The notes below the pieces were generated by a model, which saw nothing but the letters and a program-made list of their open reading frames with translations, did no database searches and was not told the DNA's origin. Source: Mesorhizobium loti (GTDB lineage Bacteria > Pseudomonadota > Alphaproteobacteria > Rhizobiales > Rhizobiaceae). Taken from it: DNA of 64,000 nucleotides. A program made the translations under genes and the position numbers. Where the stretch lies: NCBI RefSeq assembly GCF_001510895.1, contig NZ_LPWA01000120.1:174001-238000 (forward strand), written 5' to 3'. Shown piece after piece: positions 2,899 through 25,462 of this stretch; the stretch's first letter is position 1, and each line of letters starts with the position of its first letter.

Positions 2899-2995
2899 GC
2901 TCATATCGCTATGTGAGGGCGACGTTCCACCGCCCGGAGCCAGCATTTCTAAGGTTCCGCCTGCCATTGCCTTCCGACGGATCGGTCCGCCAAGC

Positions 2996-3946: not shown

Positions 3947-4156
3947 CCCGGCCCGTGCCTTCAATTGTGGCCAGGATGACCAATTTCGCCACAAAAATGC
4001 CGCCGGATTCGGTTCAATGGAAATCGCCGTGAGGGGTTGGCCGAGGCTTGCGGTAAGGAATTTTCAAGGTTAACGGGCTTACGGTCCTGCAGTGTTCAGC
4101 CTGCTGGCCCGGCCATGCCGAAGCCGTTGGCCCGAGAGAAAGACGTAGCCGCACCG

Positions 4157-5451: not shown

Positions 5452-5462
5452 GATTTTTTGCC

Positions 5463-5696
5463 TTGCCCAGGCCAGCCACCTACGATCTCAAAGGCCTGAA
5501 CTGCCCGCTGCCGGTCCTCAAGGCGCGAAAACGACTGGCGGCGATGCGGCCGGGAAGCCGACTGTGGCTGGAGACGACCGATCCGCTGGCCGTGATCGAC
5601 ATTCCAGCCTTCTGCGCCGATGCCGGCCATCAGCTGATCGAGACCGCCGCGGTTGCCGGCGGCCATCGTTTCCTGGTCGAGCGCGGCGTGGCCTGA
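5463..5696 (+). CDS. TusA/SirA-family sulfur carrier
   Basis: Small (77 residues) TusA-like protein. These carry persulfide sulfur on a cysteine in a CPxP motif for tRNA thiolation, molybdenum cofactor or other sulfur transfer. The motif LNCPLPVLKARK is at residues 13-24, with Cys15 as the expected carrier residue, followed by the two-helix/four-strand pattern. The only in-frame start near the N-terminus is TTG at 5463, 11 bp after the transpeptidase stop. Which pathway it serves cannot be read from the context. Confidence 0.8.
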   Translation: MPRPATYDLKGLNCPLPVLKARKRLAAMRPGSRLWLETTDPLAVIDIPAFCADAGHQLIETAAVAGGHRFLVERGVA

Positions 5697-5764
5697 GCAA
5701 TTCCAGGAAAAGTGCGCAGCGGTCGGGCTCGGCGACTTCGCCGTAGCCTTCCGTCCGGAATTGC
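5697..5764. repeat. intergenic palindromic repeat (GCAATTCC family), copy 1
   Basis: The arms GCAATTCC at the left and GGAATTGC at the right frame a 68-base unit starting one base after the TusA-like stop. The inner part (AAAGTG, CGGT, GGCTCGGCG) is shared with the partial copy at 9823. A short version is at 49091. Such units are common between genes in Mesorhizobium. Confidence 0.7.
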
Positions 5765-5781
5765 GCAAAACAAATACTGGC

Positions 5782-6891: not shown

Positions 6892-6906
6892 CTGCTGGAT
6901 CACCGG

Positions 6907-8071
6907 CTAGTTCGCGGCCTTGGCCGGCTGATCCCCTTGCGCCGCGGCGGAAGCGGTGGAGGCGGGTATGGCGCCGGCTGGCAGCGGCTTGTCGGGCCGC
7001 CAGGTCGGCAGCGGCACGTCGGCATAGTTCTGATCGGTCTGGTCGACGAAGGCCTTCGGCGTCGGCCCAGTGGCACCGCCGAGGCCGACCGCGATCAGCG
7101 TCGGATGGTCGAGCTTCACCTGATAAGGCGATTTCGGCTTGTCCTTGGCGGCAACGGTGGGTGCTGCTTCGGACTGCTCTTCTTTCGTCTTCTTCTTGCA
7201 GATCTCGTCATGCAGGTCGTTGGGCGACAGGGTGTCGCCATAGGGCTTGAGCGCCGCGAGCGTCGTCGAGCCGGCCGCCGGCGTATCGAAACCCTGGTCG
7301 AGCAGCTTGGCTGCAGTCTCCGCGCGGCTGATGGCGGATTTTTCGCCAAGCACCACGGCAACCAGCGTGCGGCCATTGCGCGTCGCCGAGCCGATCATGT
7401 TGAAGCCCGATGAGCAGACGAAGCCGGTCTTCATGCCGTCGCGCCCGGGTAGCGGCCGATCAGGAGATTGTAGTTCGGGAGCGCCTTCTTGCCGACGGCA
7501 AGCCCCTCGATGGAGAACCACGGCGCGTATTGCGGGAAGTCGTTGCGGAGCGCCGTCACCAGGACAGCGAGATCGCGCGCGGTCGTGTACTGGTCCGGCG
7601 AATAGAGCCCGTTCGGATTGACGAAATGCGTTCCGACCATGCCGAGCCTGGCGGCCTCCGCGTTCATGCGGTCGGCGAAGGCGCCTGCGATCCGCCGATG
7701 TTCTCGCCGACGGCCATGGCGATGTCGTTGGCCGACTTGACCAGCATCATCTTCAGCGCATTGTCGAGCCGCATCACCGAGCCCGGCTTGAAACCCATCT
7801 TGCTCGGCGGCTCGCCGGCGGAATGCTTCGTCACCTTGATCGGCGAATCGAGCGCCACCTCGCCGGCGGCGATCGCCCGGAACGTGACATAGGCCGTCAT
7901 CAGCTTGCTGAGCGAAGCCGGATACCAGCGCTTGAAGGCATCCTGGTGCTCCAGCACCTTGCCGCTCTTCAGGTCGAACAGCACCACCGGATTGGCGCGC
8001 GCAGCACCTGAAAGTACCGGTAGCGCCAGCGCCCCCGCAAGCAATAGGTTGAGGAAATGCCTTTGCCGCAT
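6907..8071 (-). CDS. D-alanyl-D-alanine carboxypeptidase (DacA/PBP5-6 type), two frameshifts
   Basis: Periplasmic serine peptidase that trims the terminal D-Ala from peptidoglycan pentapeptides. From ATG 8071 it has a signal peptide (hydrophobic residues 6-23, ARA-N cleavage region), the active-site SLSK (Ser53, Lys56), SAN at 113-115, and further on MKTG. The frame breaks near 7685 and again near 7443; one added base at each place gives continuous family sequence. The C-terminal region is P/A-rich. Both breaks sit in runs of G and C and are probably sequencing errors. It precedes the CobW-type GTPase on the same strand. Confidence 0.85.
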
Positions 8072-8286
8072 GATCAATTCCGAAATCGCCTCTTGCCGTA
8101 ATTGCCGCTGGCTCCGTAAGATTTCGTTACGCGACGGCCAGCATGGTGCGGACCGTCCCTCGATGCGGACCGCATTTATGCGGTGCTATTTACCCTATGT
8201 GACGCCAAAATGGCAAAGCGCCACACAATCACAATTGCTGGGCAACCGACCTGAACCGCCTGCCCCAACAAAGAAATGGACCGATT

Positions 8287-9450
8287 ATGCCAATTCTCAA
8301 CCGTGCCGCGGAAATGCAGGAAGAAGTCGCCGGCTGGCGACGCCATCTGCACCAAACGCCGGAGCTGAACTTCGACGTGTTTCAGACCTCCGCCTTCGTC
8401 ATCGACAAGCTGGAGGCCTTCGGCTGCGACGAGGTTGTGACCGGGCTCGGCAAGACCGGCGTCGTCGGCATCATTCGCGGGCGCAAGGGCGAGGGTCCGA
8501 CCATTGGGTTGCGCGCTGACATGGACGCGTTGCCGATCAACGAGATCTCCGGCAAGTCCTATGCGTCGACCGTCCCTGGCAAGATGCATGCCTGCGGCCA
8601 TGACGGCCATACCGCCATGCTGCTCGGCGCCGCCAAATATCTCGCCGAGACGCGCAATTTCGCCGGCGCTGTGGCGGTGATCTTCCAGCCTGCCGAGGAA
8701 GGCGGCGGCGGCGGCAACGAAATGGTCAAGGACGGCATGATGGAGCGCTTCGGCATCTCGAAGGTGTTCGGCATGCACAATATGCCCGGCCTTCCCGTCG
8801 GCGAGTTCGCCATCAAGCCCGGCCCGATCATGGCGGCGACCGCCGAATTCACCATCACCGTCAAGGGGCATGGCGGCCATGCGGCCATGCCGCACGGCAC
8901 CATCGACCCGATCGTCATCACCAGCCAACTGGTGAGCGCTTTGCAGACCATTGCCTCGCGCAGCACCGATCCGGTCGAGGCCGTGGTGGTGTCGGTGACC
9001 AAGTTCCACGCCGGCGACGCCTATAACGTCATTCCGGAGAAAGCCGAGATCGCCGGCACGGTGCGCACGCTGAAGAAGGAAGTGGCCAGGAAGGCGGAAG
9101 AGCGCATCCGCGCCATCTGCGCCGGCCTTGCGTCGGCCTTCGGCGCGACGATCGAGGTCGACTACGACGCCAACTATCCCGTCACCTTCAACCATGCCGA
9201 AGAGACGGTCTTCGCCAGCGATATCGCCGCCGACGTCGCCGGCGACGCGCATGTCCACCGCGCCATCCAGCCGGTGATGGGCGGCGAGGATTTCTCCTAC
9301 ATGCTGGAAGTGCGCCCCGGCGCCTTTATCTTCATCGGCAACGGTGACTCGGCCGGCCTGCACCATCCTGCCTACGACTTCAACGATGAGGTCATCCCGC
9401 ACGGCATGAGCTATTGGGTGCGGCTGGCGGAGACGGCGCTGGCCGCCTGA
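8287..9450 (+). CDS. M20-family amidohydrolase (hippurate hydrolase / HipO type)
   Basis: Cytoplasmic metallo-amidohydrolase that removes acyl groups from N-acyl amino acids or similar amides. The 387-residue protein has ADMDALPI (Asp80), the metal-binding HACGHDGHTA (Cys103, His105) and PAEEGG (Glu137, Glu138), a family-typical dimerisation domain and the late GGEDFSYML motif. Its exact substrate cannot be assigned; members act on hippurate, N-acetyl amino acids or indole-3-acetyl conjugates. It stands alone between divergent dacA and the tRNA. Confidence 0.93.
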   Translation: MPILNRAAEMQEEVAGWRRHLHQTPELNFDVFQTSAFVIDKLEAFGCDEVVTGLGKTGVVGIIRGRKGEGPTIGLRADMDALPINEISGKSYASTVPGKMHACGHDGHTAMLLGAAKYLAETRNFAGAVAVIFQPAEEGGGGGNEMVKDGMMERFGISKVFGMHNMPGLPVGEFAIKPGPIMAATAEFTITVKGHGGHAAMPHGTIDPIVITSQLVSALQTIASRSTDPVEAVVVSVTKFHAGDAYNVIPEKAEIAGTVRTLKKEVARKAEERIRAICAGLASAFGATIEVDYDANYPVTFNHAEETVFASDIAADVAGDAHVHRAIQPVMGGEDFSYMLEVRPGAFIFIGNGDSAGLHHPAYDFNDEVIPHGMSYWVRLAETALAA

Positions 9451-9581
9451 GCGCCTTTTTGCGGCGGCGGCGAGAGTTCACCTCGCCGCCCGCCGGCTGG
9501 CGTGATCGGGCATGATGCCGGGCGACCGTCAGCAACGCCTCTTGGCGAACCGGCCCGAAGCGTTTATGTGTCTGGCCGCGT

Positions 9582-9658
9582 GGTCCCGTAGCTCAGTAGG
9601 ATAGAGCGGCAGATTCCTAATCTGTAGGTCACAGGTTCGATTCCTGTCGGGATCACCA
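9582..9658 (+). tRNA. tRNA-Arg (anticodon CCT)
   Basis: A cloverleaf folds cleanly. The acceptor GGTCCCG (9582-9588) pairs with CGGGATC (9648-9654, one G-U), the anticodon stem GCAGA/TCTGT closes the loop TTCCTAA giving anticodon CCT, the T arm has ACAGG/CCTGT around TTCGATT, and CCA is encoded at 9656-9658. The 3' half is repeated at 18881-18907. Confidence 0.95.
9620..9646 (+). repeat. left copy of 27-bp direct repeat inside tRNA-Arg (putative att site)
   Basis: The 27 bases from the anticodon stem to the T stem are identical to 18881-18907 in the same orientation. Eight more bases continue the match with two mismatches. Integrases of islands commonly recombine in exactly this part of tRNA genes. 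Inference: attachment-site scar. Confidence 0.65.
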
Positions 9659-10099
9659 ATGAATTCAAAGAGTTGGTGTGTGACGATACGGGTGCTGTTC
9701 CCGTCGCGCTCCCATCAAGAGTTCGTTAGTCGTTCTTGCCGACCCCTGCCGGGCGACCCGAAGCTCTGCAACTTTGCCCGTTTCTCCAGCGTGTTGCGGT
9801 GTAGCGGCCGGTCGTTCCTAAGAGCAATTCCGGGAAAAGTGTGAAACGGTTAGGCTCGGCGCCTTCGCCGTAGCATGGTGCCGGTGCTCGATGTCGGCGC
9901 CGGCGTCCGGGCCTTAAGCCGCACGTCCACTGCTGGAAGAATGATGCCGCGCAAGTGTTGAGGTGCTTGCCGGCATGTTTCTGGTTGTGTTTCGGTAGGT
10001 CGCCATTCACACAAAGCAAACCGAATCTGAAATAGGGTGCCAGATTTGAAGCGGATCGAGCCCCGCGAACCGACAGAGCCGCAGTGAAGGACGAGGCTG
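9659..10099. other. intergenic stretch after the tRNA, no gene seen
   Basis: 440 bp without a convincing gene; the open frames here are short and unlike proteins. It holds a partial copy of the GCAATTCC palindromic repeat (about 9823-9875) that shares its left arm and inner part with 5697-5764 but lacks the right arm. An integrase gene, usual at this position in tRNA-borne islands, is absent. Confidence 0.5.
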
Positions 10100-11764
10100 A
10101 TGGATGAATGGCATCCAATCGAAGGTGTTGCGAACGCGGAAATTCTTGCGCTGATAAACAAACCCTCGATCACCAATTCAAACGCCTATCTGCTGCGTAC
10201 GCCACAGCGGCTGGTGATCTTTGATCCGGGCGCTGACCCGGCCCAGATTGATCGGCTGAACACGCTTGTTGCCGGTGTGCTCGAGGAAGCGCAGCGCGAG
10301 GTCTTTCTCATCCTGACCCACGCGCATATCGATCATTTTGCCGGCGTTGAAAGGTTGCGAACAGGGGCCGGCAAGCCGTGGACCCTTGTGCATCACGAAG
10401 GCGCCAGGGCCATCCGCGCAAAGGATCGCCGTCACACCTTGGCCATCCTCTATCGAAAGTTCGAGGTGCCCGACCTCGCCGTCGACGCCACTCTATTCGG
10501 GCCCGAGACGCTCCCCGGCCTGCGCCGCGAACAACGGCCTGGGCCGGACGGGCAGCCGATCCCGGTCGAGATCCTGCCGCTGGGCCCGGGCGTGGATCTG
10601 GAGATCTATGCGACACCAGGTCATTCGTCGTGCAGTTGCTCGTTCCGCATTGGCCGGCATCTCATCATCGGCGATGTCACCTTCGGCGCAAACCCCGGCC
10701 TCGCCGGGCTGATCGGCTGGAGCAGCGAAGGATTGACCTATTCCACCCGGCTGCTCCGCCAGATCATCGACGAGCATGCAGTCAGCATCTGTTGGACGGG
10801 GCATGGCGACGCCATGTCGGGGGCCTTGGCGACCAAGATGCTTGCGACGGTGGCAAGCCAGGTGGCCTCCTTTGGCGAGATTGCGGTCATCGACGAGGAG
10901 CGTATCACCCTGCTGCGCCGCTTCGCGACGGAGTTGCTGCATGAGATCGAGCGGCTTTTCACGCTGATCGGCGCCCGGCTGATGATCGTGGCGCATCACC
11001 TCGAGCTGCTGGAGGAAACCGTCGAGGCAGCGCGCCTTGAAAGCGCTCTCAACATTGACGCTGTGGAAGCGCAGCTCGGCGAATTCCGGCAATTCTGTAG
11101 CGCTTTCGAGCGCGGCGAGCAGCCGGAGCTATCGGTCGCGATGAAGGCGGCAGCCACCATGACGCGCCTGCGCCGCACCGTGGCCGAGTACAGGCAAACC
11201 GAGACCGGCTCGCTTTCTCCGGCGGCTCGTGCCGAACACCTTGTCGACGCCTTCCTGCAGGCCATACGCGGCCTCAGCTTCCAGGACGCCATCACACCGG
11301 TCAACCTGGCGGAGATGGTCGACAAGCTTGTGGCGGCGGAACAGTCCCCACCGTTCGGCGTCGACGACTTCATGGCCGCCAGCGACGATGACGAAGCCTT
11401 CCGCCGCCTGCTGGTCGGCAATCTGTCGTCCGCATCCATCCTCCGCGGGCGCGACATTGTCGTTCGGCACGACCGAAGCGAAGCCTGGGATGGAACAGCG
11501 GCGGCAAATGTACCGTGGCTGCAGAACATCCTGCTTTCCACGCTGGAGGCGATGGCCGCGGCGGAAGCAAACAAAAGGATCGACATTATCGTCGCGAAGG
11601 CGGCCGGCAGCGTTGCGATCGGCATTGCAACCGACCCGCCTGGCCCACCGCTGCCGGCCGTCAGGACGGAACTCTACCACCGCACCATGCAGCAAATGGG
11701 CGGCGGCTATGAGATTGAGGACGGTGCCGTCGTCATCAAATTACGGCTCGCCGGCGCCCTTTGA
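10100..11764 (+). CDS. metallo-beta-lactamase-fold hydrolase fused to a histidine-kinase-like C-terminal region
   Basis: 554 residues. The N-terminal part (about 1-245) is a metallo-beta-lactamase hydrolase with the metal motif HAHIDH at 74-79, a later TPGHS and IIGD, and WTGHGD. The middle (about 260-400) is helical and looks like a dimerisation/phosphotransfer-type bundle. The last 110 residues follow the pattern of a histidine-kinase ATPase domain in degenerate form: a helix in place of the N-box (LQNILLSTLEAM), a strand then DPPGPPLP in place of the G1 box, then MGGGYEIEDGAVVIKLRL. No clear phosphoacceptor His or intact N-box Asn was found. It is convergent with the partner-switch operon and inside the tRNA-flanked segment. 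Function unknown; a signalling role is inferred. Confidence 0.7.
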   Translation: MDEWHPIEGVANAEILALINKPSITNSNAYLLRTPQRLVIFDPGADPAQIDRLNTLVAGVLEEAQREVFLILTHAHIDHFAGVERLRTGAGKPWTLVHHEGARAIRAKDRRHTLAILYRKFEVPDLAVDATLFGPETLPGLRREQRPGPDGQPIPVEILPLGPGVDLEIYATPGHSSCSCSFRIGRHLIIGDVTFGANPGLAGLIGWSSEGLTYSTRLLRQIIDEHAVSICWTGHGDAMSGALATKMLATVASQVASFGEIAVIDEERITLLRRFATELLHEIERLFTLIGARLMIVAHHLELLEETVEAARLESALNIDAVEAQLGEFRQFCSAFERGEQPELSVAMKAAATMTRLRRTVAEYRQTETGSLSPAARAEHLVDAFLQAIRGLSFQDAITPVNLAEMVDKLVAAEQSPPFGVDDFMAASDDDEAFRRLLVGNLSSASILRGRDIVVRHDRSEAWDGTAAANVPWLQNILLSTLEAMAAAEANKRIDIIVAKAAGSVAIGIATDPPGPPLPAVRTELYHRTMQQMGGGYEIEDGAVVIKLRLAGAL

Positions 11765-11856
11765 GGTGCTCAGCCGTTGCTACGCGTCGGCGGACTGCCC
11801 CCGATCGGCCAGCTGACCGAGCAGCCCGGCAAGGTTCGCGGCTGGGCAAATGATCA

Positions 11857-12159
11857 TCACACGATTCTGAAAATCGACGAGAAGCCGGAGATGTCGAAGA
11901 CCTCCTTTACCGCTGGCTGAAGGTCGGACAGCAGGAGGTCCCTGCCCGCGGCCCGCATCTGCTTGGCCGCGATCAGCAGCGAGCGCAGGCCGGAACTCGC
12001 AACGTAGCTGACGCCCGCCATGTTGATGACGATCTGTGCCGACGTATCTCGAATGATGTCGACGACATAGGTTTCGAAGGTCTTGGCGTGCAGGGTGTCG
12101 AGCCTGCCGCTCACTTGCACGACAGTGCGGTCGGGATGGTCTTCATGGCTGATGTTCAT
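11857..12159 (-). CDS. STAS-domain anti-sigma factor antagonist (RsbV-like)
   Basis: Small STAS protein with the canonical strand VVQVSGRLD and the phosphorylation loop SYVASSGLRSLL; the first Ser of SSG is the expected phosphoserine. In partner-switch systems such a protein binds and is phosphorylated by an RsbW-type kinase. The RsbW-like gene ends about 33 bp upstream. I placed the start at ATG 12159 because an AGGA lies 8 bases before it; ATG 12180 and TTG 12192 are alternatives. It is the last gene of the seven-gene minus-strand operon. Confidence 0.85.
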   Translation of the reverse strand: MNISHEDHPDRTVVQVSGRLDTLHAKTFETYVVDIIRDTSAQIVINMAGVSYVASSGLRSLLIAAKQMRAAGRDLLLSDLQPAVKEVFDISGFSSIFRIV

Positions 12160-12192
12160 GGCATTCTGTCCTGTGGTCATCACGATTTGCAA

Positions 12193-12648
12193 TCAACCCT
12201 CGCCGGCAACACGGCTGCCTAGTGTCAGTTGGTTGCCGCTCCCCGTCCGGCAGTAAGAGAATTCGTCAAGCATGCTGCGCATCAGCCTGATTCCATGCCC
12301 GCCTATGACGGCGCTTTCGATAGAGTCCGGCAGCGGCGGCACCTCCACCAATGTCGGGTCGAACGATTTGCCGTTATCCGTGATTCTGAGCCGCACCATG
12401 TCGGGTGACCGGCTGTAGGAAAGCGAAATGGCGTTGTCCTTGGATGGCTCGTCGGCGAATGCGTGCGTGATCACGTTCGTGAGTGCCTCTTCCATGCTGA
12501 GCTGCAGGGCGAAACGGGCGCGTTCCGGCCAGCGGTCGCGTTCGGCAAGCGCCTCGAGCCAGCCGCTCGCCCGCGGCAATTCATCGACATCCACGCCAAG
12601 GTCCAGCCTGTCCGCCGTTGTCCCGAAACCGCCATCCCGGCCCACCAT
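12193..12648 (-). CDS. RsbW-like anti-sigma factor / serine kinase (HATPase)
   Basis: 151-residue GHKL ATPase of the anti-sigma kinase type. Motifs: N-box EEALTNVITHAF (53-64), G1 box ITDNGKSFDP (about 89-98) and the ATP-lid GGHGIRLMRSM (116-126). Such kinases phosphorylate a cognate STAS protein and sequester a target (often a sigma factor) when the STAS protein is phosphorylated. The RsbV-like gene follows immediately, so the two are a likely kinase/substrate pair. No sigma factor gene is in the cluster, so the target is either distant or not a sigma factor. Confidence 0.87.
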   Translation of the reverse strand: MVGRDGGFGTTADRLDLGVDVDELPRASGWLEALAERDRWPERARFALQLSMEEALTNVITHAFADEPSKDNAISLSYSRSPDMVRLRITDNGKSFDPTLVEVPPLPDSIESAVIGGHGIRLMRSMLDEFSYCRTGSGNQLTLGSRVAGEG

Positions 12649-12682
12649 GTCTCGCTCCTGGCTGCCTCGCGCTTGAGAAGGG

Positions 12683-13021
12683 TCAGGAAATCACCAGATC
12701 GACCGCCGGGTACAGCTTCTTGAGATTGGGCAGGGATTTCGATTGCCACGGAATGCGCGTCGATCCCTTCACGCTAAGCCCGATCTCGGCCTGCTTGCGA
12801 ACTTCGATGGTGAACTTCGCCAAGAGGTTGATGCCCGAGCTGTTGAGGAATTCGAGCTCGGTAAGATCGAGCACAATGGCTTTCGGCTTCGACGCCAGAA
12901 CCTTGTCCATCAGTTCGAGGATCGGCGCATAGGCTTCGGTTCCAGACAGGCGCATCGTACCCTCGTAGTGGATTTCCGGCCCCTCGCTCCACACGCGGTA
13001 CTCGTTGGTCTTGATTTCCAT
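12683..13021 (-). CDS. STAS-like regulator of the slr1659 type
   Basis: 112 residues from ATG 13021. The pattern is [20 protein letters not shown] followed by a basic [14 protein letters not shown] tail, which I recognise as the slr1659-type STAS family seen beside SiaB-like proteins. The SSG serines are the expected phosphorylation site. It takes the place that SiaC holds in the Pseudomonas siaABCD operon but is not the same family. It lies 27 bp after the SiaB-like gene. Confidence 0.8.
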
Positions 13022-13048
13022 GATGTGCAACCAGCTCCAAATTTCGGC

Positions 13049-13597
13049 TCAGGGAAGATCGAGCGCAGCGAAGGTTTCCAGCCTGATCCGATCGACGACC
13101 GCCGTATCGTCGAACGCCCAGCCGAGGCGCGCGCCATAGTCACTCATCAGGGTCAGAAGACCAAGTCCGGACCCGCTCGAATTCGAAGCGGCGGCATTGG
13201 CCTCGATGCGCTCAATGAGCAGGTCCCCCGGATCGCGGCTCGTCAACTCGACCAGCATTTTCTGAAAGCGCGCCGCAGTCTTGGAATCGACCATATTGGT
13301 GATCTTGACCTCGAAGCGGTCATCGTCAAGCGAGCTCTCCACGAGGATGTCCCCGGACGAACGAAACTTCACCGCGTTCTCCAGCAACTCGTTGACGAGG
13401 TAGCCGATGCCGTGGCGCGCCTCGTTATAGTCGTGTTGCAAGGCGATACGGCGAAGCGCGAAAAAATCGCCGAGGAAATCCGATGTCGTCGCGCAGTGAT
13501 GCCAGGCAAGATCGATCGGCCCGGCGGCAATCTGGAGCGTGTTGCGAAAGGCGGCCTTGCCGTTCAGAAACTCGGTGCTGCCGAAGCTCTTGTGCAT
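13049..13597 (-). CDS. SiaB-like ATP-binding protein (putative protein kinase)
   Basis: 182 residues with a HATPase fold: N-box NELLENAVKF (69-78) and a glycine lid GSGLGLLTLMSDYG (141-154). The surrounding sequence, starting with the ALQHDYNEARHGIGYLVNELLENA helix, is like the SiaB family of biofilm-regulating kinases. In Pseudomonas aeruginosa SiaB phosphorylates SiaC and SiaA reverses it (established for that system). Here the gene sits four bases after the SiaA-like phosphatase gene and just before the slr1659-type STAS gene, the same functional order. Confidence 0.8.
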   Translation of the reverse strand: MHKSFGSTEFLNGKAAFRNTLQIAAGPIDLAWHHCATTSDFLGDFFALRRIALQHDYNEARHGIGYLVNELLENAVKFRSSGDILVESSLDDDRFEVKITNMVDSKTAARFQKMLVELTSRDPGDLLIERIEANAAASNSSGSGLGLLTLMSDYGARLGWAFDDTAVVDRIRLETFAALDLP

Positions 13598-13601
13598 GCT
13601 T

Positions 13602-15965
13602 CTACCTGTGCCTCATCACGACAAGCGTGATGTCGTCATGGATCGTCTGCGTGCCGATATGCGCCATCACGTCGTCCATGATGCCCTTTATGATCTGCTC
13701 GGCATTGCCCTCTCTGTAGCGAAGCGCGCTCTCGCAAAGCCGGTCGGCGCCGAACAGCTCGCCACGCGGACTTTCGGCCTCGGTGACGCCGTCGGTGTGC
13801 AGGATGATGATGTCGCCGCTGTCGAAGCGCGTTTCGCGCGTCGCCAGGAAAGGCGAGATGTCGGCCTCCAGGCCGATGGGAAAGCCGAGATCGATGGTGT
13901 CGATGCGCTCGGTCTGGCCTTCGCCACGCAGGATCAGAACCTCCTCGTGCTGCCCCGAGATTGTCACCTTGCGATCCTCGTAGTCAAGGAAGGCGAGGGT
14001 CAGGTGCTTGTCCGAATTGGTGCGCGCGATGTTCTTGTATATGGCGCTGTTGAGCACTTCGAGGAAATGCTTGGGATCGTCGCTGCCCTTTTCCTGCAAG
14101 GCGCGCGCGACCGATTGCACCATCAGCATCAGCACGCCGCTCTCCAGCCCGTGGCCGGTGACGTCGCCGATGCCGACCTTGATGCGCGTCCCGTCGTGCA
14201 GAACGTCGTAGTAGTCGCCGCCGACCTCGTCGGCCGGCTTCATGTAACCGGCGATTTCGATCTTCGGAATGCCACTCAATTCATGCGCTTTCGGCAGCAC
14301 CATCATCTGTATTTGGCGGGCAACATCGAGCTCCGCACCGAGCCTGAGATTCTCGCTCTTCAGTCGGTCGTTGAGCGCGACGATTTCCCGATTGGCGCCC
14401 TCCAGTTCCGTGGTTCGCGCTTCGACCAGTCTTTCGAGATTTTCGGTATGGTAGCTGATCTCCTCAGCCATGCGGTTGAAGGCCACCCCGACCGCACCGA
14501 CCTCGTCGCGGGTCGGAATGTCGACGCGCACCGAGTAGTCCTTGTTCTGCAGGCGTCGCGCAGCCTCGGCGAGCGCGCTCAGCCCCGCCGTTATGCGCCC
14601 GGAAATCGCAAACACTGCCGCGAGCACGATCAGCAGCGACAGCAATACCGCGGCAATCTGCCAGAACAGGATGCTCGACGTGGCGCGCGAAATCTTCTGC
14701 TGAGCGTCGATCAGCGATGCATAGATTTCGCGTTCCGGCACCATGAAGCCGAGCGTCATCGCCTCGCGCCGCACCGGCTTGCCCGTGCTGTACATGTTGG
14801 TCGGCTCGAGCTGTTTCATCAGCACGATGTAGGGAATTTCCGTGCCGTCCTGTGACAGCGACAGCTTGTCGAAGACAACGCTGTCGTCCGTGGGCAGCGC
14901 AAGCTTCGCGATCGCGGCCTGACTGCTCTTCGACAGGTTTCTGTCGAAGCTCTGGCCGGTATCGAACTTGACGCCGAGCGTCCTCTCGCCCGCCTCGGTC
15001 ACGGCAAGCACATTGCCGTCCGACATCGACAGAAAGGCAAATCCGGTCTCGGCGATTTTGACGCTCTGGACGATCTCGGCCATCTGGTCGAGCGTCAGGT
15101 CGACCCCGACCACACCTGCTATGTCCTTCTTGTCGGGCGTCTCCAGCGGCTGAAAGAAACTGACGATGGTCTTGCCGGTGATGCCGTCGAGATAGGGCGC
15201 CAGCGTCGTGATCGGCGAGGCCACCGGACGCTTCGATGGCATCGCCATCCAGGACTGCCAGTTCTCATAAAGTCCTGGAAAGAAGAAGTCCCACCAATTC
15301 TGGCCATTGTGTCCAGGATAGACCCTGTCGAAGACCTCTCCCTGGTTGTTGTAGGGGGTCGAGCGCAAGATAGGAGCCTGCTTCGGCCCCATATAGTACA
15401 TCTGCAGCTTCGGCGGACCGGATTGCATGATGCCCGGTCCGAATATGTCGAAGGCGGCGCTCTGGCGGACTTCCTTGAGCGCTTCGGGCAACGGGGATTT
15501 GTCCGCGCCGAGCAGATAGCCCCAGACGGTGACCGCCGACTGCTCGCCTTGTCCGTTCTGCCACCAGTTTCCGCCCGGATTGTAGGTCAGCGGCGTCGTG
15601 ACTTTGCTGTCGCGCGCCAGGATATCGCCGAGCGTCGCTTGCAGATCGGGGTGGTCGACGGTGTTCTGCATCGCGCCCGCCAGCGCGTTGACCTCGGAAT
15701 GGTATTGATCGAACAGAAGGTTCGTCCGCTCGACCGTCGTCGTGATGTAATTCTGCAGATATTCGGACGTGGCCTTCTCCAGCCCGGCTCCGACCTCGTC
15801 GGCGGCATCGTGCGACAGGCGTTGCACGTTCCAGATCGCAATGCCGCTGCCGAGGATGAGGTCGAAGACGACCGCCGCGCCCACTACCATGATGAACTTG
15901 GCCCGGAAACTGCATGGCGCCAGCCGCCCAAGCGGCAGCCGGCCGCTGCCGGCGACGAGGCTCAT
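13602..15965 (-). CDS. SiaA-like membrane PP2C/SpoIIE phosphatase with sensor and HAMP domains
   Basis: 787 residues. A first membrane helix (about 22-46), a large periplasmic Cache-like sensor region (47-430, including VAGVVGVDLTLDQM), a second helix (about 433-455), a HAMP linker (455-508), a coiled coil (505-550) and a PP2C phosphatase domain with EVGGDYYD (580-587), GDVTGHGLESG (600-610), HTDGVTEA (723-730) and HDDITLVVM (776-784). All metal-binding aspartates are present. It should dephosphorylate a STAS partner in response to an external ligand. Its ATG overlaps the methyltransferase stop as ATGA, so the two are coupled. Confidence 0.9.
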   Translation of the reverse strand: MSLVAGSGRLPLGRLAPCSFRAKFIMVVGAAVVFDLILGSGIAIWNVQRLSHDAADEVGAGLEKATSEYLQNYITTTVERTNLLFDQYHSEVNALAGAMQNTVDHPDLQATLGDILARDSKVTTPLTYNPGGNWWQNGQGEQSAVTVWGYLLGADKSPLPEALKEVRQSAAFDIFGPGIMQSGPPKLQMYYMGPKQAPILRSTPYNNQGEVFDRVYPGHNGQNWWDFFFPGLYENWQSWMAMPSKRPVASPITTLAPYLDGITGKTIVSFFQPLETPDKKDIAGVVGVDLTLDQMAEIVQSVKIAETGFAFLSMSDGNVLAVTEAGERTLGVKFDTGQSFDRNLSKSSQAAIAKLALPTDDSVVFDKLSLSQDGTEIPYIVLMKQLEPTNMYSTGKPVRREAMTLGFMVPEREIYASLIDAQQKISRATSSILFWQIAAVLLSLLIVLAAVFAISGRITAGLSALAEAARRLQNKDYSVRVDIPTRDEVGAVGVAFNRMAEEISYHTENLERLVEARTTELEGANREIVALNDRLKSENLRLGAELDVARQIQMMVLPKAHELSGIPKIEIAGYMKPADEVGGDYYDVLHDGTRIKVGIGDVTGHGLESGVLMLMVQSVARALQEKGSDDPKHFLEVLNSAIYKNIARTNSDKHLTLAFLDYEDRKVTISGQHEEVLILRGEGQTERIDTIDLGFPIGLEADISPFLATRETRFDSGDIIILHTDGVTEAESPRGELFGADRLCESALRYREGNAEQIIKGIMDDVMAHIGTQTIHDDITLVVMRHR

Positions 15966-17137
15966 TGCGGCTTGCGTCCGGAGACGACCCAGATCGGCCA
16001 GCCGGCATAGCCCTTTGGATGCAGCGCCGCAAAAATGTGATCGTCGAAACCGCGCGCGAACCGCTCCATGAACGCCTTGCTGTCGCCGCGCCGCGCGGAC
16101 ATGTCTTGGGCAAACAGAACCTTCCAGGCATTGACGGTATCGGTAAAGTCCTGCGGATCGCCGTCCGTGTTGGTCACCATGAAGGTCTCAGCCCTGATGT
16201 CGCCGAAGCCGGCATCGATCATGGCCCGTCGGCTCTTGGGGCCGAATTCAAGGTCCATCGAAAAGTGAGCGAACAGCTTCGACAATTCGTTGTAGGTCCA
16301 CTGGATACTGTCGCCGCGCGGCTCGCCCAGGCAATGCGATATCTTCTCGTTGGTGACGTAGACCCGGCCGCCTGGCTTGCAGATGCGAAACAGCTCCGCG
16401 AGGATGAGCTCCGGCCGATCGAATATCTGCAAGGAATGGCGGCAGGTGACAAAATCGAACTGATCATCCTCGATCAGCATCTCGGAGGCGTCGCCATAGA
16501 TGTATTCGATGCCCTGCAGGCCAAAGTCGGCGGCGACCTTGCGGGCATAGTCGAGGCTCGAGCGTGAGTGATCGAGCGCAACCAGACGGGCAGGCTTGAA
16601 CTCCTTATGGACCAGCGCGGCGAAATCGCCGATGCCGCAGCAGATGTCGGCGACGGTCAATCCTTCACGCAGGCCGTGCCTCGGCAGGATGTCCTTCTCA
16701 TGCCGCCAGGTCATCTTTGTCTGGGTGCGCAGGATCGGGATGAACCCGCCCTCCTCCAGAAAAGCCTGCCCGGGATAGAATTCGTTGTCATACTCCTCGA
16801 CGGCGATGCTTGCATGCGCGCGCTGCAAGGCGCGGAACTTGCGCGTCGACCAGCCGACGACGCTCGATGTGATCACCAAAACCCTGAGATCCGGCCGCTC
16901 CTCGCACGCCTTCACCAAGAGGTTCGCCAGCATGTGGAAGGCGATGTTGTTGAGCCGAACCAGCCGCTTGACGTTGACGTAGAAGGTCCCTCTGACCATT
17001 GCCAGCGAGGTTTCGAGCATGCGGGCACAGCCGCTCAGTTCCTCGACCCGCTGCGGCCGCATGGAGCCGATGATCGCGAACTCCTGGTTGTTCTCATCGA
17101 AGCGTATGTCGAATGTCGACCTGGCGGTGTCGGACAT
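15962..17137 (-). CDS. STAS-like domain fused to class I SAM-dependent methyltransferase
   Basis: 391 residues in two parts. Residues 1 to about 125 resemble the slr1659-type STAS fold (FYVNVKRLVRLNNIAFHML), but the loop that carries the phosphoserines in the neighbour reads LNNIAF, so it is probably not phosphorylated. Residues about 130-391 form a methyltransferase with motif I VADICCGIGDFA (162-173), the acidic VALDHS, GDASEM, and FDFVTCRHSLQIFDR. The methyl acceptor is unknown. It lies between the degenerate HATPase protein (stop/start overlap at 17137) and the SiaA-like phosphatase (overlap at 15962-15965). A methyl-transfer output controlled by the switch is inference. Confidence 0.82.
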   Translation of the reverse strand: MSDTARSTFDIRFDENNQEFAIIGSMRPQRVEELSGCARMLETSLAMVRGTFYVNVKRLVRLNNIAFHMLANLLVKACEERPDLRVLVITSSVVGWSTRKFRALQRAHASIAVEEYDNEFYPGQAFLEEGGFIPILRTQTKMTWRHEKDILPRHGLREGLTVADICCGIGDFAALVHKEFKPARLVALDHSRSSLDYARKVAADFGLQGIEYIYGDASEMLIEDDQFDFVTCRHSLQIFDRPELILAELFRICKPGGRVYVTNEKISHCLGEPRGDSIQWTYNELSKLFAHFSMDLEFGPKSRRAMIDAGFGDIRAETFMVTNTDGDPQDFTDTVNAWKVLFAQDMSARRGDSKAFMERFARGFDDHIFAALHPKGYAGWPIWVVSGRKPQ

Positions 17138-17655
17138 CAGCGTCTCGTTTCTTCAAGCGACAGATCGGCGACCAGCCGGATGGCATCCTTCCCGACCTGC
17201 TCGACCGACATTGTCGCGGCATAGTCTACCGCCAGTTCGAAAAGGCCTATGTCGGGGTCGAGCGGACCTTCGGCGAAGAGCGCGCTCCTGTATTGCGTCT
17301 CGACGTCATCCTGCTGGAGCCGGTTCATGGCGTCCCGGTAGAATCGGGCACCCGCCGCGTCGCAAGGGATGATGAGCTCGATCCGGTCTCTTTTGCCAAG
17401 ACGCGAGACGCTGCAGGCAAAGCTGCCTCCCGGCCTGTGCACTCTGAAGACGGTCTCGAGCAGCTCGTTGAGGGCGGACGAAAGCAAGTTGGAATAGAGC
17501 AGCGAGTCGGTCCGGTTATGGCCGATCATGCGTGCGACATAGGATGACACGCGGTCGCAATAAGACCAATTCGAGGAGAAGACATCGACGTCCATGTCGA
17601 TCTGGAGAAGCCGTTCGAAATGCGCGCCGCAGGCATCCGATGCCGACTGAACCAT
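17137..17655 (-). CDS. degenerate SiaB/HATPase-like protein
   Basis: 172 residues, first gene of the minus-strand operon. The helix SNLLSSALNELLETVFRVHRP (about 55-75) matches the N-box helix of the SiaB-like neighbour (NELLENAVKF), but the ATP-coordinating Asn is replaced, and no glycine-rich lid follows. It therefore looks like a non-ATP-binding paralogue, perhaps a scaffold or docking partner for the STAS-like methyltransferase translated from the overlapping next gene. Function otherwise unknown. Confidence 0.65.
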   Translation of the reverse strand: MVQSASDACGAHFERLLQIDMDVDVFSSNWSYCDRVSSYVARMIGHNRTDSLLYSNLLSSALNELLETVFRVHRPGGSFACSVSRLGKRDRIELIIPCDAAGARFYRDAMNRLQQDDVETQYRSALFAEGPLDPDIGLFELAVDYAATMSVEQVGKDAIRLVADLSLEETRR

Positions 17656-17862
17656 GCCTCGCCCTTCTGCCGCAACCGCCGTCTTCGCCTGCGGGTCTGC
17701 TTGTTCGCGAGGTCAAGGGACGGGATGCCCGACCCTCGCGAAATGACCGGACAAGCAGATTGAGTCTCCGATTATAACGATACGGAAAGCCTATCTACCC
17801 GATCAATACCTAAGGTTGAAGCAACAGCTTGCTTGACGCACAGACAAGTGATTATCACTGAG
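17656..17862. promoter_or_regulatory. divergent promoter region of the partner-switch module
   Basis: About 200 bp between the minus-strand operon (start 17655) and the plus-strand PP2C gene. It is more A/T-rich than the flanks (for example GATTATAACGATACGG near 17772). Both transcripts must start here or nearby. No operator palindrome could be assigned with confidence. Confidence 0.4.
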
Positions 17863-18819
17863 ATGATGAATGAAGTATCAAACAGGCAAACGATTCGCGC
17901 GGCTTCTGCGGAAGCGCGAAGCGATTTCGACCTTGATCGCGATCACGAGCTTGCCGAGGCGCGTGCCGAAATCGCCAGGCTCTCCGCCGAGTACGACGAT
18001 CTGAAGTTGCTCTACGCCGCGCTGATGGAACACGGCGAGGCGGTCGAGGATCAACTGGCGGAAAGCAACCTCGCGCTACAGAAGACACAGGCCCGGCTGG
18101 ACGCCGAACTTGCCGACGCGGGGCGCTATGTGCTGTCGCTTTTGCCGGCGCCACGCACCGCCTCGCCCGTCACCGATTGGCTGCTGGTGCCGTCGACCGA
18201 ACTCGGCGGCGATTCCTTCGGCTATCACGCGATCGATGACGACCATATGGCGTTCTATTTGCTGGACGTCTGTGGCCACGGTGTTGGCGCCGCCCTGTTG
18301 TCGGCCGCTGTGATTAACGTGCTTCGCTCCTCGTCGCTGCCCAATGTGGACTTCCGCAAGCCGGACGGCGTGCTTGCCGCGCTCAACGAAGCATTTCCGA
18401 TGGAAACGCAGAACGACATGTTCTTCACCATCTGGTACGGCGTCCATTGCAGGTCCACCGCCACGCTTTCCTATTCGACCGGCGGGCATCCGCCGGCCAT
18501 CCACCTGCGCACCGCCGCCGATGGCGTGGTGCGGACCAGCCAACTCATCACCTACGGCGGGATGGCGATCGGCGCCTTTCCCGGCGTGGATTACGAGTTG
18601 AAGAGCTTCGTTGTCGAGCCAGGAGACCGCCTGCTGATCCTCAGCGACGGAACCTTTGAGGTGAACGGCGCCGACGGCGGCATGCTGAGTGTGAGCGACC
18701 TCGCGCAGTATGCGGCTGCGCACGGCGATGAGCCGAGCCAAATTCTTGAATGGGTGCGGTCGATGAACGGGACCGGGCCGTTGCCGGACGATTTTTCGCT
18801 GCTTCGGATACAGTTTTAA
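17863..18819 (+). CDS. cytoplasmic PP2C/SpoIIE-type phosphatase with N-terminal coiled coil
   Basis: 318 residues from ATG 17863 (TTG 17833 gives ten more). The first hundred residues are a charged coiled coil (AEARAEIARLSAEYDDLKLL...). The phosphatase domain follows with LGGDSFGYHAID, LLDVCGHGVGAALLS, LSDGTFEVNG and LPDDFSLLRI; each metal-binding Asp is present. There is no membrane helix, so this is a second, soluble phosphatase of the same module, read away from the operon. It probably acts on one of the STAS proteins. Confidence 0.87.
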   Translation: MMNEVSNRQTIRAASAEARSDFDLDRDHELAEARAEIARLSAEYDDLKLLYAALMEHGEAVEDQLAESNLALQKTQARLDAELADAGRYVLSLLPAPRTASPVTDWLLVPSTELGGDSFGYHAIDDDHMAFYLLDVCGHGVGAALLSAAVINVLRSSSLPNVDFRKPDGVLAALNEAFPMETQNDMFFTIWYGVHCRSTATLSYSTGGHPPAIHLRTAADGVVRTSQLITYGGMAIGAFPGVDYELKSFVVEPGDRLLILSDGTFEVNGADGGMLSVSDLAQYAAAHGDEPSQILEWVRSMNGTGPLPDDFSLLRIQF

Positions 18820-18880
18820 GGCCATGCTGCTTTGAGCCGGCATTGAGGACCAACCGGAAAGACCGACTGGCCAATTTCTG

Positions 18881-18907
18881 ATCTGTAGGTCACAGGTTCG
18901 ATTCCTG
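18881..18907 (+). repeat. right copy of 27-bp direct repeat from tRNA-Arg (putative att scar)
   Basis: Identical over 27 bases to 9620-9646, same strand, followed by CGGGGATC against TCGGGATC in the tRNA. The bases just before it weakly resemble the anticodon arm, but there is no 5' half, so it cannot fold as a tRNA. It lies between the PP2C gene and the first SGNH esterase, marking the right edge of the signalling island (inference). Confidence 0.65.
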
Positions 18908-19024
18908 CGGGGATCCCTACTTCTCCGGCAGGCTGTCGAAAAATGCGGGGCCGACAGTGCCGCGCCGGTCCCGCAATCGGCGCATCGGTCTGGAGGGGCC
19001 GATACGCGGCTGAGACTGCGATCC

Positions 19025-19705
19025 TCAGGCAACCTTGTGGTCAGGCTGGCGCGCGAAAATCTCCTGAACCTTGACGGCTATCGCCTTGCCGAGGTCGCGG
19101 TTGTTCTCGGCGGTGAAATGGATGCCGTCGCAGCCGCCGGTGGTGATGAAATCTCCGGCATTGAGGAAATCGACCTTTGCGAAGTCGGCCATGGCGCGAT
19201 ACTCGGCTGCGAGCGCGGCCGTCTTTTCATGGCCGCCCGCGAACATGCCCTGGAAGAAGGGATGCGGCATCGGGGTCAGCGGCGGCGGCGCGACCACCAG
19301 CGCTTGCGGGGCGGGATAGGGCGTGCCGACGCCGCCGGCGCTGGTAAGGATCTGGCCGACGAGCTTGGCCATGCCATTGGCGATCTCATAGGGTGTGCGG
19401 CGGAAGAACGACTTGGCGTCGTTGGTGCCGAGCATGACGATGACGAGGTCGAGCGGCAAGTGGCTGGCGATGGCCGACGGCAAATAGGCACTGCCGTTGA
19501 GGCGCGGATCGTTGGGATCGTCGAGGCTGGTGGTGCGGGCGCTTAAGCCCTCCTCGATCACGTGATAGCCGTCGCCCAGATGCGAGGCCATCGCACCCGT
19601 CCAGCGGTCCTCATAGGAGTAGCGATGCGTTGGCGAACCCTCCATGACCGGAATCCAGCCCCAGGTCAGCGAGTCCCCAAAACACAAAATCGATCTCTTG
19701 GTCAT
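19025..19705 (-). CDS. SGNH/GDSL-family hydrolase (esterase), copy 1
   Basis: 226-residue cytoplasmic SGNH esterase. The catalytic Ser is in FGDSL (Ser12), the Gly/Asn block in VMLGTNDA, and the C-terminal Asp/His in DGIHF. The nearby sugar importer suggests it removes acetyl or other acyl groups from imported oligosaccharides (inference). It shares the stretch VIEEGLSxRTT with the second esterase at 24772, so the two are paralogues. It lies 65 bp downstream of the permease gene on the same strand and may be the last gene of that operon. Confidence 0.87.
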   Translation of the reverse strand: MTKRSILCFGDSLTWGWIPVMEGSPTHRYSYEDRWTGAMASHLGDGYHVIEEGLSARTTSLDDPNDPRLNGSAYLPSAIASHLPLDLVIVMLGTNDAKSFFRRTPYEIANGMAKLVGQILTSAGGVGTPYPAPQALVVAPPPLTPMPHPFFQGMFAGGHEKTAALAAEYRAMADFAKVDFLNAGDFITTGGCDGIHFTAENNRDLGKAIAVKVQEIFARQPDHKVA

Positions 19706-19770
19706 GTCTCCAATCCATTTCCTGTATGCGATTGACTATTGGCCGTTCCGGCCTCGTCCCCCAAAAACGG

Positions 19771-20724
19771 TCACGTTGACCTGGTCCTGATCCCGTAGAG
19801 GATCGCCGCGAGCAGGATGATGAGACCCTGCGCGATCAGCTTGCCGGGCTCGTCGACGCCGAAGGTGGTCATCACGACGAACAGCAGCGCGAACGACAGC
19901 ACACCGAAGAAGGGCCCCCAGACGCCGCCTTCCCCGCGGCCGAAGACGACGCCGCCAAGGATGGTCGCGGCCACCGCCAGGATCGGCAGGTCGAGGCCGA
20001 CCCTGACGCTGCCGACGGCGATCGAGGCCGTCTGGACCAGAGCAGCTATGCCCGCGAACAGGCCGGCGAGCGTGTGCGCAAGCACTACGGTGCGGGCGAC
20101 CGGGACACCGGAGAAATGCGCCGCCTGCACGCTCTCGCCGACCGAGGTGACGTAGCGGCCGAAGACCGTGCGCGACAGGAACAGCGACAGAAGCGCCGAA
20201 ACCGCCAGCCAGAAGATCACCGGCGTCGGCACCGGACCGAGCTTGGTGTTATAGATGTCGCCGAACATGCCCGGCACATCGCCGGGCGGCTTGCCGCTCG
20301 ACAGATACTGCACGATCCCGACGAGGACGATGCCGACCGCAAGCGTGACGATGACGGCCGAGACGCGCCTGACCCCGACCATCACACCGTTGAAGAGGCC
20401 GACGGCGAGGCCGATGGTCAGCGCCAGGACAATGAAGAAGATCATCGAGGCGCCGGGAAAGACGCCTGAGGAGATCGTATAGTTGATGAGCAGGATGACC
20501 CCGCCGCCCGACAGGTCGATGCTTCGCACCCGCATCACCAGAAGCTGGCCGAGCACCAATATGCCGAGCGGCACGATCTGGCGCACGAATATGCCCATGA
20601 CGTTGAGATTGAGCATGTTCGGCCGCGCGATCCACAGGACCAGGAGCAGCACGGCAAAGACGTAGTAGGCCGGGGGGATGCGCAGCAGGCGGCGCATGAC
20701 GGGATTGGCGAGCGCGGCAGCCAC
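19771..20724 (-). CDS. sugar ABC transporter permease (ribose/RbsC type), subunit 2
   Basis: 317-residue inner-membrane permease with about nine hydrophobic segments and the BPD_transp_2 signature region (SVGESVQAAHFSGVPVART, the EAA-like loop that contacts the ATPase). It is the last transporter gene of the operon and directly abuts the other permease. Two different permeases beside one tandem ATPase point to a heterodimeric channel, as in the AI-2, rhamnose and some pentose importers. The substrate is not identifiable from sequence alone. Confidence 0.9.
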   Translation of the reverse strand: MAAALANPVMRRLLRIPPAYYVFAVLLLVLWIARPNMLNLNVMGIFVRQIVPLGILVLGQLLVMRVRSIDLSGGGVILLINYTISSGVFPGASMIFFIVLALTIGLAVGLFNGVMVGVRRVSAVIVTLAVGIVLVGIVQYLSSGKPPGDVPGMFGDIYNTKLGPVPTPVIFWLAVSALLSLFLSRTVFGRYVTSVGESVQAAHFSGVPVARTVVLAHTLAGLFAGIAALVQTASIAVGSVRVGLDLPILAVAATILGGVVFGRGEGGVWGPFFGVLSFALLFVVMTTFGVDEPGKLIAQGLIILLAAILYGIRTRST

Positions 20725-21687
20725 TTACAGCCCCATCTTCTTGCGCGATTGCAGCGCAACCACCAGAAGCAGGATCGCGCCTTTGATGGTGGTCTGGATA
20801 AAGGGCGACACATTCGTCAGGTTCATGCCGTTGGCGAGCAGCGCCATGACGAGCGCGCCGATGACAGTGCCGTGCAGGCTGCCGATGCCGCCGGAAAGCT
20901 GGGTGCCGCCGATTGCGACGGCCGTGATCGCGTCGAGTTCGAAAAGCAACCCGACATTCGGGTCGCCCGAGACGATGCGCCCGGCGAGGAAGACGCCGGC
21001 AAGGGCCGCGAAGCAGGCACAGATCACATAGGCGAGGATGATGTTGCGCCTGTCGGCGATGCCGAAATTATGCGCCGCATCCTCGACGCCGGACGACACA
21101 CCGCCGCCGATCGCGAAAAGATGCAGTCCGAAGCGGGAGCCGTAGGCGAGCTTCCACGCGATCGCGAGGGTGAAGACCCCCCAGAATACCGGCATGGGCA
21201 CGCCGAGGATGGACCCGGCCACGGCGCTAATGACGATATCCGGCACTGTGCCGCCCGAAACCGGCCGCAGCACCCGCGTGATGCCGAGCAAAATGTACTG
21301 CATCGACAGTGTCGCGATGATCGGATGCACGTTGAAGCGCGTGATGATGAAGCCGTTGGTGAAGCCGACCAGCGCGGCCAGCACGAACACGGCCGGGATC
21401 AGCACCCAGGCGGGCCCGCCGAGGGCGAGCACCGCCGTCGTGAAGCTGATCATCGACCCGACCGAAAGATCGAGTCCGCCGAGCAGGATGACGAACATCT
21501 GGCCGACCGCCGTGATGACGAGCGGCATCGCCTGTGGCACCAGATTGAGCAGGTTCTCCCCATTGAGGAACTGCGCGGTCTCGAGGCTGAGCCAGAGCGC
21601 GATCGCCAGCGCGATCAGCAAGGGCAGCATCCACATGCCCTGCCGCGATCCCCTCGCGCCCGTCAGGCGCCTGCTAATGGCCGTCAT
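20725..21687 (-). CDS. sugar ABC transporter permease (ribose/RbsC type), subunit 1
   Basis: 320-residue permease of the same family, with the QFLNGENLLNLVPQAMPLVITAVGQMFVILLGGLDLSVG segment typical of the family start and multiple membrane spans. Its ATG overlaps the end of the ATPase gene by four bases, and its stop touches the start of the second permease, so all three are coupled. It acts in the inner membrane with the tandem ATPase and the periplasmic binding protein. Confidence 0.9.
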   Translation of the reverse strand: MTAISRRLTGARGSRQGMWMLPLLIALAIALWLSLETAQFLNGENLLNLVPQAMPLVITAVGQMFVILLGGLDLSVGSMISFTTAVLALGGPAWVLIPAVFVLAALVGFTNGFIITRFNVHPIIATLSMQYILLGITRVLRPVSGGTVPDIVISAVAGSILGVPMPVFWGVFTLAIAWKLAYGSRFGLHLFAIGGGVSSGVEDAAHNFGIADRRNIILAYVICACFAALAGVFLAGRIVSGDPNVGLLFELDAITAVAIGGTQLSGGIGSLHGTVIGALVMALLANGMNLTNVSPFIQTTIKGAILLLVVALQSRKKMGL

Positions 21688-23237: not shown

Positions 23238-23306
23238 CGCTGCATCCAGGAAGATCTCCGTGGCGCGGGCGACGTCGTCGCCGCCCGCGCCACGATGGCG
23301 CCACCC

Positions 23307-25421: not shown

Positions 25422-25462
25422 CGGCGGCATATTGGACACGACCGATTGCGAAAGGGCGCACG

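Follow-up and report, generated by a model that had tools for sequence, protein, structure and literature searches.

Downstream of the tRNA-Arg(CCT) gene in Mesorhizobium loti contig NZ_LPWA01000120.1, a second, partial copy of the tRNA 3′ half closes off a 9.3-kb segment of signaling genes, raising the question of how this segment came to lie beside the tRNA. We analyzed it within a 64-kb stretch of the contig (hereafter the window, from whose first base window positions are counted). With a probability of roughly 0.88, positions 9659–18868 are the remnant of an integrative element that was inserted at tRNA-Arg(CCT) by an L127-type tyrosine integrase and has since lost the integrase gene. The repeat, an empty site in a relative, the homology of the segment's distal end to attachment-site arms elsewhere in the genus, the pairing of such arms with an integrase in relatives and the lack of an integrase in the segment could each be observed directly.

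The repeat at tRNA-Arg(CCT) and its empty site

The tRNA-Arg(CCT) gene (9582–9658, + strand) is the sole tRNA that ARAGORN calls in the window. Within it, positions 9620–9646 are identical to 18881–18907 on the same strand, and the eight bases that follow this 27-bp core contain two mismatches between the copies, exactly as a first-pass annotation of this DNA had described. The full match is wider than was then seen, with 41 of 47 bases (87%) in agreement between 9608–9654 and 18869–18915. The distal copy (attR; 18869–18915, + strand, exact core 18881–18907) is decayed. It lacks the 5′ half of the tRNA, and ARAGORN calls no tRNA there, bearing out the earlier statement that it is no tRNA gene.

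We searched for the 27-mer, allowing at most one mismatch, in a set of 146 Mesorhizobium genomes that included drafts as well as the window's own genome (G000; 7.46 Mb in 185 contigs). It was present at least once in 145 of the 146 and twice in G000, both times in this region, while the 27-mer read backwards gave no match across all 146. A chance repeat was ruled out by the count in G000 together with this reversed-pattern control. The first-pass annotation had held that a match at many unrelated loci would undo its proposal; in the window's genome the 27-mer occurs only at these two places.

The tRNA lies in a conserved context. To its left is a gene that we take, from the earlier annotation and general knowledge, to be of the amidohydrolase type (8287–9450, + strand). 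Positions 9300–9700, which span the end of this gene and the tRNA, matched all 146 genomes at E ≤ 0.001, and in the relatives compared the left flank is about 86–94% identical in DNA sequence. To the right of the distal copy is a gene (19025–19705, − strand) that, on the same grounds, presumably encodes an SGNH-type esterase. It is found in 11 other genomes of the genus at 94–97% protein identity, and in 9 of these it shares a contig with tRNA-Arg.

In one relative, G004, the site is empty: tRNA-Arg runs directly into the sequence found after the window's distal copy, and 106 bp separate the tRNA from the SGNH gene. Window positions 18874–26000 align without a break to 2841–9937 of the G004 locus (L033), with 90% identity over 7.1 kb. 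When the distal copy and its downstream sequence were aligned with the tRNA half and downstream sequence of other genomes, 110 of 131 columns agreed for G004, 100 of 132 for G083 and 95 of 137 for G057; the latter two are short joins, in which the local match past the repeat stops after 66 bp and 15 bp, respectively. The comparison of the amidohydrolase/tRNA-Arg/SGNH esterase region that the first-pass annotation had proposed thus yielded an empty site, in full in one relative. The GC content of the segment is 61.1%, compared to 64.8% on its left and 64.4% on its right. From the empty site and the GC shift, we delimit the inserted island as 9659–18868 (no strand assigned).

The earlier annotation had named the same genes at the same place in most relatives, with no empty site, as evidence against its proposal. 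We saw the cluster at this tRNA-Arg in only one of the 146 genomes, the window's own, although the place is not fully readable in drafts, above all in G132. These results bear on a quite different history, in which the cluster has long belonged to the chromosome and the distal copy is either left over from a tRNA duplication or a coincidental match. A widespread core of the cluster in Rhizobiales fits that history, which is nonetheless very improbable given the empty site in G004, the arm homology described below, the failure to see the cluster here in 145 other genomes and the occurrence of the 27-mer only twice in the genome. The empty site refutes it, barring a deletion in G004 with its end points exactly in the repeat, and such a deletion would itself look like site-specific excision. 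A duplicated-tRNA relic was rejected on the arm homology and the empty site. The proposal that the cluster arrived, or is bounded, as an island is accordingly supported.

The attachment-site arm and its integrase family

The island ends in an attachment-site arm (18837–18871, + strand) with homology to the arms of islands elsewhere in Mesorhizobium. The bases to the left of the window's distal copy resemble those in G028, G048, G074, G075, G082, G088 and G107. When compared with a consensus built from eight other arms, the window being excluded, 18837–18871 agreed at 28 of 35 positions, and no other position in the window scored more than 20 (127,929 compared, counting both strands). Individual arms agreed with the window at 13 to 27 of 35 positions. 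With a second site in G074 and those in G134, G136 and G144 counted in, arm-bearing half sites number 13 in 11 genomes, the window's included. The arm is of use as a sequence tag for finding remnants that have no integrase.

Beside 7 of the 13 half sites is an integrase of one family, intact in five cases and broken in two. The intact protein has 438 aa with Arm-DNA-bind_3 and Phage_integrase domains (a tyrosine integrase, L127 type). In G028 and G048 its gene begins some 180 bp away from the half copy, and the location is the same in G074, G134 and G144; the half site beside the gene is 87 kb (G028), 95 kb (G134) or 140 kb (G074) from the tRNA. Broken integrases adjoin the arm in G075 and at the second site of G074. 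At the G136 arm site the integrase is reduced to a 25-aa scrap, and the stretches fetched from G082, G088 (both sites) and G107 gave no integrase match at E ≤ 1e-3.

In the genus search, 12 of 146 genomes matched the 438-aa integrase at E ≤ 1e-60. These include five genomes whose only members are 56–60% identical; G144 has one such cousin as well. At all five loci examined (L162–L166), the cousins adjoin the half copy of a different tRNA. Two further integrases (L134 and L148; 34% mutual identity) lie beside half sites with other arms at tRNA-Arg(CCT). On plasmids, we found one 56% relative, on a Bradyrhizobium plasmid, and the others among the best 8 of 23 matches are remote.

The window segment thus has the arm of the L127-type element family without the family's integrase gene. 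A motif search for an integrase over window positions 9000–19500 gave nothing convincing, and an integrase hidden in the segment was rejected on this search and on tblastn. The tblastn matches at 2377–2874 (best E 3e-10, to the other integrases) fall in a gene that lies beyond the segment. Since there is no integrase inside the distal end, we call the segment a remnant rather than a working member, and since the arm is present, relatives carry an integrase beside it and the window has none, 9659–18868 is most likely a remnant of that element family. The first-pass suggestion that the island has lost its integrase is strengthened in that relatives with the same arm carry a tyrosine integrase exactly there, and the loss itself is the probable explanation.

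Insertions at this tRNA are frequent. The 27-mer is present at least twice in 30 of the 146 genomes. In 20 cases a second copy could be mapped to the contig that bears the tRNA. Of these, 19, counting the window's, are found downstream of the tRNA in the same orientation, 1.8–140 kb from it; in the exception, G050, the second copy is on the opposite strand and 1.78 Mb distant. An extra copy lies on another contig in G021, G048, G095, G113, G122 and G144, further copies are found in G047 and G088, and the second copies of G126, G129, G133 and G143 are outside the 20 placed. Of 22 half copies outside the window at the loci compared, 16 retain the 45-bp stretch between anticodon loop and CCA unchanged and diverge to its left, as expected if crossover takes place in the anticodon loop. 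Within Mesorhizobium, tRNA-Arg(CCT) serves as a frequently used integration slot.

Some half sites have layouts of their own. Those at L127 (near oriented position 7161) and L150 (near 9873) are flanked on both sides by element-type sequence within large contigs. This layout resembles the attachment site of a circular element and may reflect tandem or unusual integration. At L170 12305 (+ strand, G144) and L171 9288 (− strand, G134), the opposite end of the integrase gene is flanked by a second tRNA-like sequence, either a half or a decayed gene, which differs from the first.

How might the window's arrangement have arisen? A tyrosine integrase belonging to the family of G028, G048, G074, G134 and G144 would join the attachment site of the element to the chromosomal tRNA gene. 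The element's site would carry a tRNA-Arg 3′ half and would be joined at the same 45-bp stretch, from the anticodon loop to CCA. The 3′ half brought by the element would complete the tRNA anew, and the chromosomal half that it displaced would become the distal copy at 18869–18915. Under the usual model of tRNA integration, the 3′ half of the present tRNA-Arg, from the anticodon loop onward and including the proximal copy of the repeat (9620–9646, + strand), would thus have come with the element as its attL side. Deletion of the integrase gene up to the arm would later have left 18837–18871, and the distal copy, free of selection, would have decayed. What we infer from this arrangement is the direction of exchange, the sequence of the events and that the integrase was lost, not supplied in trans.

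Use in trans defines an alternative: the segment may never have had its own integrase but, satellite-like, may have carried the attachment sites of the family and been integrated by the integrase of a co-resident element. The window's genome does contain a broken integrase of the same family on another contig (G000:C116:41805-42630; L169 8812–9631), and arm-bearing half sites with no integrase are common (the window, G082, G107 and two in G088, as well as G136 with its 25-aa scrap). Decay in place is, however, visible in the scrap of G136 and in the two broken integrases that adjoin the arm, one in G075 and one at the second G074 site, and one insertion followed by one deletion is the simplest history. 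We regard integration in trans as unlikely. In 19 kb around the broken integrase of G000:C116, no half site reaches 29/45. That integrase lies near a gene resembling mercuric reductase (named by eye).

Several points weigh against a remnant of an L127-type element. The full two-flank empty site was found in one relative only. The eight other relatives with both flanks carry other inserts of 0.6–13.4 kb with no second half copy (up to 4 substitutions) between the tRNA and the right flank, so that the place has also been reshaped in other ways; among these two-flank relatives and the window, the window alone has a distal half copy. No remnant of an integrase was detected in the segment when five integrases were used in tblastn over the whole window, the family's best values being at chance level. 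The arms of L145 and L151, which were assigned by eye, match the window poorly without gaps (15/35 and 13/35). The sequence 3′ of the window's tRNA is of the type common in the genus, unlike the TCAGTCAC-type arm at that position in G088, so that the left end gives no independent identification of the element family. Absence of the cluster from this place is not fully readable in drafts: G132 has the cluster on a 7.1-kb contig, and its tRNA-Arg is interrupted behind the 5′ half by unrelated sequence, reflecting either an assembly error or another event at the same tRNA. Finally, an element moved in trans, or one whose contents were exchanged later, could look just like one that has lost its integrase.

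As to the individual loci, the inserts beside tRNA-Arg at L035, L037 and L038 contain, for example, transporter and oxidase genes (named by eye) and have no half copy. In G132, a metagenome-assembled genome, the cut tRNA-Arg and the related cluster were seen at the loci L181, approximately 7050–7350, on the minus strand (G132:C482), and L182 (G132:C25).

With these reservations, integration by an L127-type integrase that was later lost best accounts for the segment. What began as a repeat seen by eye is now a documented integration event with an empty site, an integrase family and an attachment arm.

The cargo and its distribution

Nine genes lie between the two copies, and we scanned them with Pfam together with a tenth frame that is probably spurious. 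The first (10100–11764, + strand) encodes a 554-aa protein with a metallo-β-lactamase (MBL)-fold hydrolase domain at residues 26–209 (PF00753, E 1.8e-15). Its C-terminal half has no credible Pfam family match, and the predicted structure, with a mean predicted local distance difference test score of 40.7, is too poor for use. Genes on the minus strand follow. They encode a STAS protein of the anti-sigma factor antagonist type (11857–12192; PF01740, E 5.9e-19; TIGR00377, 76.1 bits, cut-off 53.45); a HATPase_c_2 switch kinase that is RsbW-like (12193–12648; PF13581, E 2e-22), for which the RsbW equivalogs score below their cut-offs; a STAS regulator of the slr1659 superfamily with SS in the phosphoacceptor motif (12683–13030; NF047705, 142 bits, cut-off 100); and a SiaB-like switch kinase of the slr1658 superfamily with the N-box Asn (13049–13597; NF047703, 173 bits, cut-off 100).

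The largest gene (13602–15965, − strand) encodes a 787-aa sensor phosphatase with a Cache-like region (PF02743, E 6.5e-7, below cut-off), a HAMP domain (PF00672, E 8.2e-13) and a SiaA-like SpoIIE domain (PF07228, E 6.9e-38). It is followed on the same strand by genes for a UbiE-like methyltransferase (15962–17137; PF13649, E 3.5e-18) with an N-terminal slr1659-like domain (residues 7–111; NF047705, E 4.6e-9, below cut-off) and for an slr1658-like protein that has no N-box Asn and is a probable pseudokinase (17137–17655; NF047703, E 1.2e-8, below cut-off). The last gene (17833–18819, + strand) encodes a 328-aa SpoIIE phosphatase (PF07228, E 2.2e-38), and its stop codon is 61 bp ahead of the exact repeat core. 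Among the ten frames, the Pfam scan found no relaxase or conjugation gene, no transposase and no GGDEF domain.

We read the N-box and phosphoacceptor motifs with the functional meaning commonly given to them, and take RsbV/RsbW/RsbU and SiaABC as models of partner switching. By analogy with these systems, the cargo may act as a partner switch in which the phosphorylation state of STAS proteins is governed by kinases and SpoIIE phosphatases, the methyltransferase being a likely output. The N-box Asn of the first slr1658-type kinase is present in all 80 homologues, as is the SS of its slr1659-type STAS partner. At the N-box column of the second slr1658-like protein, none of 76 homologues has Asn. 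In the STAS-like domain of the methyltransferase, Ser occupies the first phosphoacceptor position in 7 of 76 homologues and Thr the next in 43 of 76, and the window has neither. From these residues, the second slr1658-like protein and the slr1659-like domain of the methyltransferase are possibly a pseudokinase and its fixed partner. Because the Asn is lost and the phosphoacceptor Ser mostly so, this second pair could bind without phosphorylation. More tentatively, the island might be a mobile, self-contained partner switch with methyltransferase output, in which an intact SiaB-like kinase/STAS pair is joined by a co-evolved second pair that couples the switch to methylation. If the cargo works in this way, a partner-switching regulatory module can spread as the content of an island.

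A defense island was considered and rejected. The single PADLOC match, mad2 (E 1.4e-20), covers only the methyltransferase fold (residues 150–289) and was taken as generic, and no other MADS protein was found among the eight of nine cargo proteins given to PADLOC (all but the slr1659-type STAS protein).

The phosphatase module and the MBL gene are distributed differently. For the 787-aa phosphatase, 51 other Mesorhizobium genomes gave matches at E ≤ 1e-100, with identities of at most 69%. We saw none of these near tRNA-Arg; the closest on one contig is about 180 kb away (G021). Among 80 named loci, the common unit is a five-gene core running from the second slr1658-like protein through the slr1659-type STAS protein, of which loci cut by contig ends miss a part. 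The MBL-fold protein was found in its own genome only, both among the 146 genus genomes (E ≤ 1e-60) and among 397 genomes of the order (E ≤ 1e-40), and had no plasmid match at E ≤ 1e-5. A plasmid origin for the segment was rejected: megablast matched 23 plasmid records at 60–80% identity, and the best of the ten listed covers 23%.

In a quick tree of all 80 loci and the window, and in a second tree of the window and 33 of these loci that was used for constraint tests, we followed the 787-aa phosphatase. It groups with those of two Shinella species and of the Mesorhizobium metagenome-assembled genome Bin.005 (G132), with a bootstrap value of 100 and an SH-aLRT value of 100. A constraint holding the window together with eleven Mesorhizobium rows was rejected (p-AU 4e-59). 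Those eleven rows, however, do not themselves form a single clade (5 changes), so that transfer is not cleanly supported by this test.

The differing distributions bear on another possible history, in which the cluster came into an island already in place, or took over from its earlier contents, through some other recombination, and the half copy marks only the older event. The segment may, given these distributions, be a mosaic; inserts at this place also vary among near relatives, and the arms of L140 and L151 adjoin unlike sequence on their left. Set against this are the lack of a transposase among the ten frames and the position of all nine genes between the two copies. Such a replacement is doubtful, though far from negligible, and we continue to favor arrival of the cargo with the L127-type element.

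Relation to known elements and partner switches

The segment shares its tRNA, the repeat core and the distal-end arm with the elements of G028, G048, G074, G134 and G144 that encode the 438-aa integrase. It differs from them in having no integrase, and it measures 9.3 kb from copy to copy. Integrative and conjugative elements and integrative and mobilizable elements adjacent to tRNA-Arg are reported in Mesorhizobium in the passages of Colombi et al. (2021; PMC8627217) on which we draw, where most of the 79 elements carry tyrosine integrases. The window segment is like these in genus and in kind of site, although those passages do not state which tRNA-Arg gene is used. The reported elements are described there as conjugative or mobilizable, whereas integrase, relaxase and conjugation genes are all missing from the segment. 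In PMC11837538, the passage on tRNA-Arg deals with Sinorhizobium replicons. In our literature search, no publication clearly dealt with this integrase-less island or with its cargo, and we claim nothing wider.

Within the window, a 53-nt intergenic repeat (9822–9874 and 5695–5747, 87% identity) was seen, the first 30 or so bases of which are also present at loci in other genomes.

The cargo resembles SiaABCD of Pseudomonas aeruginosa and the slr1658/slr1659 pair of Synechocystis in that a HAMP-SpoIIE phosphatase, a SiaB-like kinase and a STAS partner are likewise encoded together. Scores for the Sia families themselves are well under their cut-offs, with the SiaA equivalog at 122 bits on the 787-aa phosphatase (cut-off 700) and the SiaB subfamily at 24.8 bits (cut-off 85). 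Unlike SiaABCD, the window has no diguanylate cyclase (SiaD), and it has instead a fusion of a STAS-like domain to a methyltransferase and a second SiaB-like protein without the N-box Asn. An element inserted at tRNA-Arg in Mesorhizobium is a known kind of event; its cargo here is unusual.

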